From assembly GCF_000013445.1 (NCBI RefSeq), contig NC_007796.1, forward strand, positions 1,896,936 to 1,960,935: a stretch of DNA of 64,000 nt, given 5' to 3'. Below are positions 16,964 through 50,850 of the stretch, one piece after another. Within the stretch, counting starts at the first letter, position 1; every line of letters starts with the position of its first letter. Origin of the DNA: Methanospirillum hungatei JF-1. GTDB taxonomy: Archaea; Halobacteriota; Methanomicrobia; Methanomicrobiales; Methanospirillaceae. The notes beneath the pieces were generated by a model. It worked only from the letters and a program-made list of their open reading frames with translations, made no database searches and was not told the DNA's origin. The position numbers and the translations under genes were made by a program.

Positions 16964-18763
16964 ATGCAGAATAATGAAAAACCTATTATTTTAAAAGGAA
17001 TCACAAAAGTTGAAGGATATGCTGAAGGAGAAGCTCTGGTTACCTCGAGTTTTTTAAGCCATCTGGTTAATGCAGTCAATTCTGACGGAGTTATCAGAAT
17101 ATTTGGCCATCCTCTCGTGGGGCAGTCATATGCCGGGAAGATTGTGGTATACGACACTGACAAATTTTCTACCGGAGGTGCATGGGGCCTCTATTTCAAG
17201 GCAAAAGTAACTAATTCAGCTCCAAAGGCTCTCATCTGTCGGACGGTCCATCCGATCAGTATTGGTGGTGCCATTGATGCCGGGATTCCTGCAGTGGATT
17301 CCTTTGATGTTGACCCATGGACCGTTATTCAGACCGGTGATTATGTGAAGATAACTGCACCAAAAGCAGGAGATGAAGGGATTATTAAGATTTATCCGAA
17401 AGATCCTGCACGGCGGGCAGAACTGGCAGAATTAAAATCCTTACCAAAAAAAGGGTGGGAAAAAAGTGACATCTCACTTACCCCCTATGAACAGGAGATG
17501 CTGGCCGGAAAGCATGGTAGACCAAAACAAGTAGCCATGGAACGGTTGGTGAAATTTGCTGAAGGGATGGGATCAAAGCGTATGGTGCCGATATGTTCCG
17601 CCCATCTCTTTGATGACCATCAGAGTCGTGATTATACCGTCGGGGCATGGCCTGCATTTGAAGAGTTCGCGAGTATGGGGGCTAAGGTAGTAGTGCCGAC
17701 CACTGTTGAGAGTACAGCCATGGGAGATGATCTTGTCGATGATAAAGGGATGCCCTGGCACTATTCCGTTATGGCCCCGGCCAGGGAAGTGTTCAAGGGG
17801 ATGGTTCCGGTCCATGAAAACCTGAAGAACATGGGTGCTACGGTGATCCCGACCTGTATCCCCTATGCCCACCTGGCCCCGCCAAAATTCGGTGAATATC
17901 TCGTTACTTCAGAGTCGAACGCTGCTGCATACAGTAATATTATGATTGGAGCGAGGGTAAACAGGGACCCTGCGAACATGGTTCTCTATGCTGCAATAAC
18001 CGGTGTCATGCCTGAATATGGGGTCCACCTGCAGGAGAACCGGATCGGTCAGATGATCTTTGACGTAGACCCTGCCGTGGTAAAGGAACTTGATGATGTC
18101 GGGGACTATGTGGCACTTGGCGGAGCGATCGGATTCCGGGCTGGTGACAGGGTACCTGTTGTATGCGGCCTTAACCGAATGACAAATGCTCAGGCAAAGG
18201 CATTTTGTGCCTGTGTATCTCCCGCATTGACCTACCCCATGATCCATATCGTCGGCATCACTCCTGAAGCAAGGACGATTGAAGAGGCTTTCGGAGGGGA
18301 GATCCCAAAGGATGTTGAGCGTGTACGTATCACCAAATCAGATCTTGCGGCGGTATATCAGAACCTTCGACAGACGGAGAAGACCAGTATTGATGCAGCG
18401 GTTATCGGTTGTCCGTTTCTGATGTTTGAAGAACTAGCGGATATTGCTGGAATGCTGGACGGGCAGAAGGTATCCGCACCTCTCTGGCTTTACACCGACT
18501 ATGTGAATTACAGTGCAGCGAAAAAGGCAGGTATCCTCGAGAAGATAGAGGCCAGCGGAGCACGGGTCGTGCATTCATCCTGTCCGGGGATGGTCGTCAG
18601 GGCACCTGCAGATGCGGAGAAACTTGTCTTTGCCACAGACAGTCTGAAAGTTGCTATGCTCTTTGCCGGTATAGGCTGGCCGAAGAACTGGCTTGGAACA
18701 CGAAAAGATGTCATCCAGGCAGCGATAACTGGCACGTATGTTCAGAATAAGTGGCTGAACTGA
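16964..18763 (+). CDS. aconitase X, swivel (DUF126) and catalytic (DUF521) domains fused
   Basis: In this 599-residue protein, residues about 5-145 match the small swivel domain (GHPLVGQSYAGKIV, HPISIGGAIDAGIPAVD, QTGDYVKI). Residues about 190-595 match the AcnX catalytic domain (TCIPYAHLAPP, ESNAAAYSNIMIGARVNRDP, AITGVMPEYGVH, SSCPGMVV). Separate archaeal subunits form phosphomevalonate dehydratase of the mevalonate pathway; fused AcnX proteins include cis-3-hydroxyproline dehydratases. Fusion and the neighbouring peptidase suggest a catabolic dehydratase, but this is inference. A GAGAG ribosome site precedes the ATG. Cysteines in TCIP, FCAC and SSCP could hold the Fe-S cluster. Confidence 0.88.
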   Translation: MQNNEKPIILKGITKVEGYAEGEALVTSSFLSHLVNAVNSDGVIRIFGHPLVGQSYAGKIVVYDTDKFSTGGAWGLYFKAKVTNSAPKALICRTVHPISIGGAIDAGIPAVDSFDVDPWTVIQTGDYVKITAPKAGDEGIIKIYPKDPARRAELAELKSLPKKGWEKSDISLTPYEQEMLAGKHGRPKQVAMERLVKFAEGMGSKRMVPICSAHLFDDHQSRDYTVGAWPAFEEFASMGAKVVVPTTVESTAMGDDLVDDKGMPWHYSVMAPAREVFKGMVPVHENLKNMGATVIPTCIPYAHLAPPKFGEYLVTSESNAAAYSNIMIGARVNRDPANMVLYAAITGVMPEYGVHLQENRIGQMIFDVDPAVVKELDDVGDYVALGGAIGFRAGDRVPVVCGLNRMTNAQAKAFCACVSPALTYPMIHIVGITPEARTIEEAFGGEIPKDVERVRITKSDLAAVYQNLRQTEKTSIDAAVIGCPFLMFEELADIAGMLDGQKVSAPLWLYTDYVNYSAAKKAGILEKIEASGARVVHSSCPGMVVRAPADAEKLVFATDSLKVAMLFAGIGWPKNWLGTRKDVIQAAITGTYVQNKWLN

Positions 18764-18790: not shown

Positions 18791-19890
18791 ATTAGGGATG
18801 TCTATAAACGATTAGCAAAGAAACTGGACGAATTGCCACAGGGGTTCCCCTCTACCGATACAGGTGTTGAGCTCAGGATCTTACAGCACATCTTCACCCC
18901 TGAAGATGCAGAGATGGCACTTCAGATGACGCCGGCTCCTGAAACCGCAGAACAGGTAGCCGCAAGACTTTCAAAACCGGTTGAAGAGATCCGTGCAATG
19001 CTGGATCAGATGGCAGAAAAGGGACAGATAGCCTCACTAACGATAGGGGGACACCAGGTCTACCGGTTCATTCCTTTTGTCATTGGGATCTATGAATTTC
19101 AGCGTAAAGAAAGATTAACGAAAGAACTTGCCGAACTTTTCGAAGAATACGGGCCACATCTTGCGGGGGCTACAGGAGGTCATGCCCCTCATATCGCTCG
19201 TGTCATACCGGTCAATGCTGCAATTCCAACCGATCTTCAGGTGCTCCAGCAGGACGATATCCGTCAGATCCTCAATAATGCCAAATCATTCAGGCTTCAG
19301 GACTGTATCTGTCGGAAGGAGAAGAAACTTCTGGGAGATCACTGTAAACATACCATCCATAACTGCATTCATTATTCCATGGAGGAGAATGCCTTTGATT
19401 ACTTCAATCCGGAGGGTGAGATCATCACCAGGGAAGAGGCATTTCAAATATTAGAACAGAACGATCAGGAAGGGCTGGTTCACACAACCTATAACATAAT
19501 GAATGTTCAGGGGGCTTTCTTTGTAGTTGTTGTTCCTGCAGTTGTGCGATGATACGGGCTCTGAAGGAGTTCAAGGCCCCATATATGATAGCGAAAAGCA
19601 ATTATATGGCCCAAATCGATGAGGATGCCTGTATTGCATGTGGGATCTGCAGGGATGAACGCTGCCCGATGGATGCGATAGTTGAAGAAGACGGAGAATT
19701 TCAGGTTTTAAATGACCGCTGTATCGGGTGTGGTGTGTGCATAATCACCTGTCCTTCCAAAGCAATTACCCTGATTGAAAGACCTGTGCAGGAGCGGGAT
19801 CCGATTGCGTCTGATATCACAGAATGGGGAAAAATGCGAATGACAAATCGTATGCTGGATGAACAGAAGATCCAGGGTGTTCCGAAATGA
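18791..19890 (+). pseudogene. 4Fe-4S protein split by a one-base frameshift
   Basis: Two adjacent frames together encode one recognisable protein. The first has a helical/HTH-like region, CICRKEKKLLGDHC and HTTYN. The second has a CSCCSCSC cluster, FKAPYMIAKSN, then two 4Fe-4S ferredoxin motifs (CIACGICRDERCP and CIGCGVCIITCP). In related proteins the HTTYN segment runs straight into a Cys-rich CNCC-like cluster. Here the cluster is readable only from the second frame. Adding one G to the five-G run at 19510-19514 restores a single frame of about 366 residues. Conserved sequence begins at an ATT (18791), ahead of the first usable TTG (18833). It lies 27 bases after aconitase X. Electron-transfer or sensing roles are possible. 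Confidence 0.75.
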
Positions 19891-21272: not shown

Positions 21273-22028
21273 ATGGAAGAACATAGTACAACTATGGATT
21301 TTAGCCAGTTGATTCGTCTCAATATGAGAATTATTGGGACAGTACAACGGGTAGGATATCGTCATATTGTCCAGAATATTGCGCGAAAACATAATATCAC
21401 CGGCACTATTGAAAATCTTGAGGGCTATGATGTCAGGATCGTCGCTGAAGGTACCAGAAAGGATCTTGAAGCGTTCAAGCAGGCAATAAAAATATCTGAG
21501 TACCCCATACTGGTAGAATGTATTGAGTCCAGCGAAGAGCCATATCTCGGATGTTTTTCATACTTTCAGGTCATTCGGGGATCTCCAGAAGAGGAACTGG
21601 CAGAACGGTTTGACTCAGCAATCGCGATTTTTTCACGAATGGAGAGAAAACAAGACCAGGCATTGGAAATGCATAAGGAGTCCATTGGCCTGCAGCAGGA
21701 AACACTAGGACTTCAGAAGGAAACAATTTCATTACAGAAGGAGACATTAGGACTTCAAAAGGAAACATTAGAACTTCAGAAGGAAACATTAGAACTTCAG
21801 AAGGAAACAATTTCATTACAGAAGGAGACATTAGGACTTCAGAAGGAAACAATTTCATTACAAACAGAGACTGTTTCTCTCCAGAAAGAAACCCTTGAGG
21901 AGATCAAAGGTACCAGATCAGACCTTGACAAAGGTTTCAATTCCGAACTTCGTGAGATGCGTGAAGAACTCAGAGAAATTCGGAATGCCCTCATACATGC
22001 AGGAATTATGCAAACCGTGAAGTCCTAA
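21273..22028 (+). CDS. acylphosphatase domain fused to a long heptad coiled coil
   Basis: Residues about 15-105 form an acylphosphatase domain with both catalytic residues at the canonical 18-residue spacing: Arg 30 in VQRVGYR and Asn 48 in TIENLEG. Residues about 130-213 are twelve nearly identical heptads of the type LQKETLx. They should form one uninterrupted coiled coil some 12 nm long. A charged helix (SELREMREELREIRNAL) follows. A GAGGAT ribosome site precedes the ATG. Acylphosphatase cleaves acyl phosphates, and the coiled coil probably makes a multimer or docks a partner. A diverged paralog of the same layout lies at 50374-50850. Confidence 0.85.
   Translation: MEEHSTTMDFSQLIRLNMRIIGTVQRVGYRHIVQNIARKHNITGTIENLEGYDVRIVAEGTRKDLEAFKQAIKISEYPILVECIESSEEPYLGCFSYFQVIRGSPEEELAERFDSAIAIFSRMERKQDQALEMHKESIGLQQETLGLQKETISLQKETLGLQKETLELQKETLELQKETISLQKETLGLQKETISLQTETVSLQKETLEEIKGTRSDLDKGFNSELREMREELREIRNALIHAGIMQTVKS
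21660..21911 (+). repeat. 21-bp tandem repeat encoding heptads
   Basis: About twelve 21-bp units in frame encode the coiled-coil heptads. The central units, roughly 21690-21890, are near identical. Such an array can gain or lose whole heptads by slippage without shifting the frame. Confidence 0.85.
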
Positions 22029-22197
22029 CAGGGATTAACTCTGATAAGCAGGGTTTAACGTTTTAAATTTTTGCAAGATAGTCTCCATTGAATAAACACG
22101 GCAAAACTCAATCCTTTCCCCTTTCGTTCACTTATACCATCTCTCCGATAATCAAAGCACTATTCTTAATGCACAATCCTGAATACCTGTACGTATG

Positions 22198-22275
22198 GCC
22201 TACCATGGTGATCTTGATGCATGGTACAATACGGGATATGCATTGAAAGAACAGGGTAAATATGTGACAGCATGA
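22198..22275 (+). pseudogene. fragment of a TPR-repeat protein
   Basis: The frame reads GDLDAWYNTGYALKEQGKY, the consensus of a single tetratricopeptide repeat, and then meets a TGA three codons later. No TPR sequence is seen on either side. This looks like the remnant of a TPR gene of the type common in methanogens. The rest of the 22029-22382 gap holds nothing I can identify. Confidence 0.55.
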
Positions 22276-50002: not shown

Positions 50003-50374
50003 TCAGGACATATCCATCTCATCAAGGAATGGAAGGAGTCCGATAACCCGTGGTTTATCTCCGGCCTGTTCAATCCTTACAATGGTCACTCCCAAGGGGA
50101 TTGAGCTGAGAGCATCATTGAATGAAGGATTCATCTCCCGTTGAATCTCAAGGAAAAGCGGGAGCGGAATAAATGGGCGTTCATGTTCCTCAAATTTCCC
50201 ATACTCTCTTAAATCCTTCTCATAGGTTGAGTTATATGCCAGGTCTTTCTCAAAATAAACAATTATTTCACACGGTTCCCGGACTGATATCTGCTCCAAG
50301 GCCCTGATATCTGCTACCATACCAGTACTCAGGCTGGATAGGACAACAGGGAACGCGGGTATTTTGTCTTTCAT
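50003..50374 (-). CDS. hypothetical protein downstream of acylphosphatase-coiled-coil gene
   Basis: I do not recognise this 123-residue soluble protein. It has an alpha/beta look (FPVVLSSLSTG, EPCEIIVYFEKDLAYN, SSIPLGVTIVRIEQAG). No catalytic motif stands out. Its ATG shares a base with the TAA of the acylphosphatase-coiled-coil gene (TAATG), so the two proteins are made together and may interact. Confidence 0.6.
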   Translation of the reverse strand: MKDKIPAFPVVLSSLSTGMVADIRALEQISVREPCEIIVYFEKDLAYNSTYEKDLREYGKFEEHERPFIPLPLFLEIQREMNPSFNDALSSIPLGVTIVRIEQAGDKPRVIGLLPFLDEMDMS

Positions 50375-50850
50375 TATCCGACTCCCTGGGTATGAATCGC
50401 TTCTATTACCCGTTCCAGAACTTCACGACGTTTTTTGGACTCTTTTTTCATATCACGGAGAGCTGAGACCATCTCTTCCTGCATCTTCAGACTCCGTTTC
50501 TGGAGCTTAATCATCTCTTTCAGATACTCAAGCCCCAGTTCTGACCGGTGAAACATCTCTTTTTGAAAGTCACCAAAATGGGGTTCAAAGTGATCGAATG
50601 TTCCTTCACTGGCTGACTCCGTGACGCTGAGAGAATCAATCCGGATGAGGGGCTCATCCTCTGCTTTAAGATCCTCACAAAAGCGGGCTAGACCTTCTTC
50701 TTCACCCTCAGCAACAATCCTGACCGAGCCATCGGAGAGGTTCTCAGCATACCCGAAAACCCCGTGCCGGTTCGCAATCAGTCTGGCAAATCCTCTGAAA
50801 CCAACCCGTTGTACCCGGCCGGTTACCAGAATAGTATATCGTCTCTGCAT
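50374..50850 (-). CDS. acylphosphatase domain fused to a short coiled coil
   Basis: The 158-residue protein has an N-terminal acylphosphatase domain with Arg 19 (VQRVGFR) and Asn 37 (AENLSDG) at the canonical 18-residue spacing. A helical C-terminus about 60 residues long (LGLEYLKEMIKLQKRSLKMQ, then MKKESKKRREVLERV) has coiled-coil character. It shares the architecture, but not the perfect heptads, of the protein at 21273-22028. It follows pheT by 37 bases and is coupled to the next gene, so it may be transcribed with pheS-pheT. Confidence 0.85.
   Translation of the reverse strand: MQRRYTILVTGRVQRVGFRGFARLIANRHGVFGYAENLSDGSVRIVAEGEEEGLARFCEDLKAEDEPLIRIDSLSVTESASEGTFDHFEPHFGDFQKEMFHRSELGLEYLKEMIKLQKRSLKMQEEMVSALRDMKKESKKRREVLERVIEAIHTQGVG

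Follow-up and report, generated by a model that had tools for sequence, protein, structure and literature searches.

Predicted acylphosphatases on heptad-registered rods in Methanospirillum hungatei and other Halobacteriota

Acylphosphatase is among the best-studied small folds, yet to our knowledge what it does biologically in prokaryotes is still largely unsettled. Known acylphosphatases consist of one domain of about 90-100 residues. In HypF, a protein of about 750 residues with carbamoyl-transfer domains, an N-terminal acylphosphatase domain is fused to further protein. Autotransporter adhesins are trimeric coiled-coil surface stalks that carry a polar residue, mostly Asn, at heptad position d. 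A ruler function has been demonstrated for WbdD from E. coli O9a, a kinase/methyltransferase that binds the membrane with one end: the enzyme caps glycans, and its coiled coil determines their chain length (PMC5082667).

The gene addressed here, termed AcP-rod, lies in a 64,000-nucleotide stretch (the window) of the M. hungatei JF-1 genome. Its product resembles the S. solfataricus acylphosphatase (2bjd and 4oj3; PF00708) in fold, in the catalytic Arg and Asn and in the position of the phosphate-binding loop, but it adds a junction motif, a heptad rod and a cap to the single domain. As in HypF, the acylphosphatase domain is fused to further protein, although the carbamoyl-transfer domains are missing. 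With WbdD, the nearest analogue whose mode of action is known, it shares a catalytic head on a long predicted coiled coil of changeable length and, for some relatives, a glycan setting; however, the two are not homologous, and no membrane segment was seen by eye. The rod has aliphatic residues at position a and polar residues at d over many heptads, as do the adhesin stalks, but its d residue is Gln and it belongs to an apparently cytoplasmic enzyme rather than to the surface. A literature search that covered few subscription journals returned no described system with this layout, in agreement with the first-pass annotation, which knew of none; according to that search, AcP-rod is an undescribed form of a known enzyme family.

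An acylphosphatase head on a predicted rod

The AcP-rod gene (21273-22028; this and the following features are on the forward strand) is an intact open reading frame of 251 amino acids with a mean pLDDT of 89.6 in the AF2 model. Its head (amino acids 13-100; 21309-21572) matches PF00708 at an E value of 2.6e-16 and 60.1 bits against a cut-off of 22.5, residues 18-99 covering positions 3-84 of the 85 in the profile, and the first 100 residues match solved acylphosphatases in a sequence search. In Foldseek, the best match of the modelled head is the S. solfataricus acylphosphatase 4oj3 (target TM 0.91). Both members of the catalytic pair claimed by the first-pass annotation are present, namely R30 (21360-21362) and N48 (21414-21416), in the context VQRVGYR ... 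GTIENL. By profile, catalytic pair and fold, we assigned the head to the acylphosphatases, and acyl-phosphate hydrolysis is its predicted activity. Against the NCBIfam single-domain acylphosphatase equivalogs, the protein scored at best 50 bits, under the cut-off of 100, and against the HypF model TIGR00143 it reached 23.7 bits versus 466, with the acylphosphatase part alone aligning. No hydrophobic or transmembrane stretch was seen by eye in the 251 residues, and the protein is apparently cytoplasmic.

Behind the head, a junction helix (amino acids 101-137; 21573-21683) carries the motif RGxxxEExxER, in which R102, G103, E108 and E111 are invariant in the alignment. It is followed by the rod (amino acids 138-207; 21684-21893), listed as ten heptads of the form xxLQ[KQT]ET, and by a C-terminal cap helix (amino acids 208-251; 21894-22025) with conserved E210, R215, D217, L240 and G244. 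The rod coincides with a TRF array of 21-, 42- and 84-bp periods at 21693-21862; since the 84-bp period matches at 94%, part of the array is a recent duplication. The 21-bp tandem array proposed from the first reading thus stands, but its "some twelve" LQKETxx heptads become ten when read unit by unit (eight of them exactly LQKET), the larger number taking in degenerate heptads at the edges. The long coiled coil that was also proposed is matched by the AF2 model, which predicts an acylphosphatase fold followed by a single continuous, heptad-registered helix of 138 residues (105-242) with pLDDT of about 90-98 along the rod; the pTM of 0.52 means that the angle between head and rod is not fixed by the model. 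In the family, position a (0) is I, L or V in about 97% of 193 positions, and position d (3) is Gln in 75% of the rod heptads. An aliphatic a with a polar d suggests a parallel oligomer; however, Gln at d is unusual, and the oligomer is therefore putative. A search of the PDB with the tail returned one designed coiled coil at an E value of 0.0046, which is uninformative.

Distribution and rod lengths of the family

In the alignment, family members share the same order of head, junction motif, rod and cap. The first-pass annotation had raised the prospects of relatives without the catalytic pair and of an array peculiar to one strain; neither was borne out, as we found the arginine in 29 and the asparagine in all of the 30 aligned relatives, and the family occurs across Methanomicrobiales and in other Halobacteriota. 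A head match is present in 37 of 41 Methanomicrobiales genomes, many with open reading frames of 150-340 amino acids, and in 241 of the 295 genomes of the phylum, and full-length matches as far as the junction helix were observed in several families outside Methanomicrobiales. Relatives named in a single-protein scan include Methanocalculus taiwanensis and Methanospirillum metagenome-assembled genomes. Phage records contained no match, and a phage origin of AcP-rod was rejected; the sole match among viral contigs was a protein that contains a short LQKETLEL stretch but is unrelated.

Genomes commonly carry several AcP-rod paralogs. That of the window (3,544,738 bp, one contig) has two more AcP-rod genes (3344084-3344785 and 3457647), two shorter members (3455332 and 1947387) and a plain acylphosphatase of 91 amino acids. 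A broken AcP-rod remnant lies in the same genome between AglB and a glycosyltransferase (G000:C1:3342207-3342395). The member at 1947387 lies within the window on the reverse strand (50374-50850) and encodes 158 amino acids with a short helical tail (PF00708, E 5.6e-24); its neighbourhood, with PheS/PheT-like genes (by eye), a response regulator and a histidine kinase, is conserved in eight Methanospirillum-type genomes.

The repeated heptad is lineage specific, with LQKET, KQDQML, LQVGKET, LGEKSV, LAVSKE and KID-type units, which indicates that the site of amplification stayed the same while the heptad amplified there differed. In a tree of 77 heads, built on few columns and with many open forks, the window protein falls within a supported set that comprises ten proteins of the LQKET type; the longest run of repeats in them varies between 1 and 11 heptads. 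Members of a divergent acylphosphatase subfamily (GxxVHxVGYR) end in the same cap and have LQxET or KQDQML rods of their own (L042:4034-4669, L188:1444-2037, L191:1280-2104 and L113:4278-4853). All cap-bearing tails that were read with a cap profile, this subfamily included, carry an acylphosphatase-type head, and the idea that the tail also serves other heads was rejected. Canonical and divergent genes stand near each other at L073, L075, L080 and L113, so that mixed oligomers are conceivable. At L113:4278-7987 in genome G110, one divergent and then four canonical genes with differing rod lengths form a tandem row of five, which stops about 1 kb upstream of a UDP-sugar dehydrogenase gene. In another genome (G025; L081:4345-5673), an acylphosphatase head is followed by a 320-residue tail with membrane-helix-like stretches and no rod.

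Measured by alignment columns in 30 homologs, the span from the invariant G103 to the cap residue L240 varies from 67 to 172 residues, with 13 distinct values, and equals 4 modulo 7 in 29 of the 30 proteins. Since this set includes proteins with different heptads and one without any repeat, the register is kept across the family, and by this alignment rod length is quantised in heptads. In other orders, members with the RG junction mostly fall in class 4, and one sub-group in class 1 corresponds to one four-residue (+4) stutter; members with an RE junction carry one extra residue there, and their modulo-7 class is not directly comparable. Between two sister genomes (G005 and G011), the gene differs by exactly 105 bp, or five heptads, within flanks that are roughly 95% identical, both being metagenome assemblies in which repeats may have collapsed. 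Their heads show a dN of about 0.009 and a dS of 0.12-0.14 (dN/dS about 0.07-0.08). In one genome (G062), three genes with identical heads differ in the tail, which has 76, 83 or 104 residues; these lengths are one, three and four heptads apart. The variation in rod length envisaged at the outset is supported in units of 21 bp, and length changes in whole heptads are as would be expected from gain and loss of 21-bp repeats.

Genomic neighbourhood

Of 42 rod loci in 41 Methanomicrobiales genomes, 12 have a gene for AglB (PF02516) or UDP-sugar dehydrogenase (PF00984) no more than 10 kb away, where about 1.5 would be expected; by the same count, this holds for none of the thermosome genes used as a control (0.9 expected) and for none of the 12 members of the short-tailed subfamily. 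In 30 further genomes, 9 of 57 rod loci were near these genes, versus 2.06 expected, comprising 5 of 8 loci within Methanomicrobiales and 4 of 49 elsewhere. For the latter, 1.75 would be expected, and the P value is 0.1; the nominal P values overstate significance because related genomes are non-independent samples. The link between AcP-rod and glycan genes is thus firm within Methanomicrobiales and only suggestive outside the order. As glycan islands are variable DNA, the proximity may reflect insertion hot spots.

The window gene itself is flanked by aconitase X, ferredoxin and DUF2117 genes, with no glycan genes nearby, and its orthologs, close sisters excepted, have no neighbours in common with it. 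Mapping of conserved neighbours, as the first-pass annotation had recommended, was therefore informative for other Methanomicrobiales members, whose glycan neighbours are non-random, but not for the window gene. A winged-helix-like protein and a 4Fe-4S ferredoxin are encoded upstream at 18833-19890, adjoining aconitase X (16964-18763), and a short TPR-like relic lies downstream of the AcP-rod gene at 22151-22260. In a sister genome (G001), 124 bp separate the upstream gene from the stretch matching this downstream part, with no AcP-rod gene between, and in another genome (G008) a different gene stands after the upstream gene. The empty site and the other gene indicate that the window copy was gained here or lost there; it belongs to the family as a dispersed copy with a patchy presence.

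What the rod may do

We proposed that AcP-rod is an acylphosphatase that forms oligomers on a register-locked rod and is, in Methanomicrobiales, often tied to surface-glycan synthesis, and we give this reading a probability of about 0.52. The cytoplasmic enzyme would assemble via its long coiled coil, with the helices associating in parallel, so that several catalytic heads would be gathered at the same end of a stiff rod, whose 138 residues at 1.5 A each would give a length of about 20 nm. The likeliest element to nucleate the oligomer, or to dock it to a partner, is the cap, and the rod would hold the heads at a set distance from this cap; the heads would hydrolyse an acyl phosphate at the docking site, and slippage of 21-bp units would alter their reach with the register unbroken. 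In many Methanomicrobiales, the position of the genes beside those for AglB and nucleotide sugars makes a role of the enzyme in the synthesis of surface glycans probable. Spacing or tethering of the heads and a sensor function, the roles suggested for the rod by the first-pass annotation, are likewise putative.

Another possibility, which we regard as less probable but worth weighing, is that an ordinary acylphosphatase bears a passive oligomerisation tail, whose slippage is neutral except that selection purges register-breaking changes, and that the glycan proximity is a hot-spot effect. The wide range of lengths in orthologs (from 1 to 11 heptads within the clade of the window protein), the lack of glycan neighbours at the window gene and its empty locus in the sister genome fit such a tail, whereas the strong conservation of cap and junction, the many paralogs, the expansion of different heptads at one place in several lineages and the association with glycan genes above chance within Methanomicrobiales argue against it. 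The rod might also act as the coiled coil of WbdD does, fixing the distance from a membrane glycan machine to the heads so that heptad number sets glycan size. O-antigen length follows the length of the WbdD coiled coil (PMC5082667), catalytic heads on long, whole-heptad-variable coiled coils stand beside AglB and nucleotide-sugar genes, and the tandem genes of G110, differing in length, lie just upstream of UDP-sugar dehydrogenase; but no membrane-binding segment was seen, the window member lies outside any glycan locus and sugar modification by acylphosphatase is not known, and we hold this ruler to be doubtful. It is just as much a long shot that slippage-tuned rods set how far the heads reach during the assembly of surface glycans, perhaps in mixed oligomers that include the divergent paralogs from neighbouring genes, and so form a genetically adjustable archaeal ruler.

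It is improbable that the enzyme removes acyl-phosphate marks from proteins, such as aspartyl phosphate on response regulators, and that the rod serves it as a docking arm. The short paralog and some rod genes do lie near response-regulator or kinase genes, and one open reading frame joins PAS-like sequence to AcP-rod, but two-component genes are abundant in these genomes, the PAS match falls short of its cut-off and the apparent fusion may come from a degraded gene; no supporting paper emerged from the literature search. That frame (L132:3505-4440) contains a weak PAS-like match, kinase-like sequence and a complete AcP-rod, as a fusion or a read-through of a degraded gene. Least credible of all is a repeat artefact or a decaying gene without function: one paralog in the genome of the window is indeed broken (3342207-3342395), but this explanation is contradicted by the intact reading frame, the dN/dS well under 1 in relatives, the nearly invariant catalytic residues and the phylum-wide occurrence.

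The family bears on both the enzyme and the coiled coil. Coiled coils mostly keep a constant length. According to a review, the length of coiled coils varies 3.6 times less than that of other regions (PMC5082667); the 13 rod lengths found here, nearly all in one register, form a natural experiment, unusually clean, on the register of coiled coils, and the family is equally one on how repeat slippage generates variants in length. Furthermore, the same head, repeatedly joined to lineage-specific rods, offers a handle on the role of acylphosphatase.
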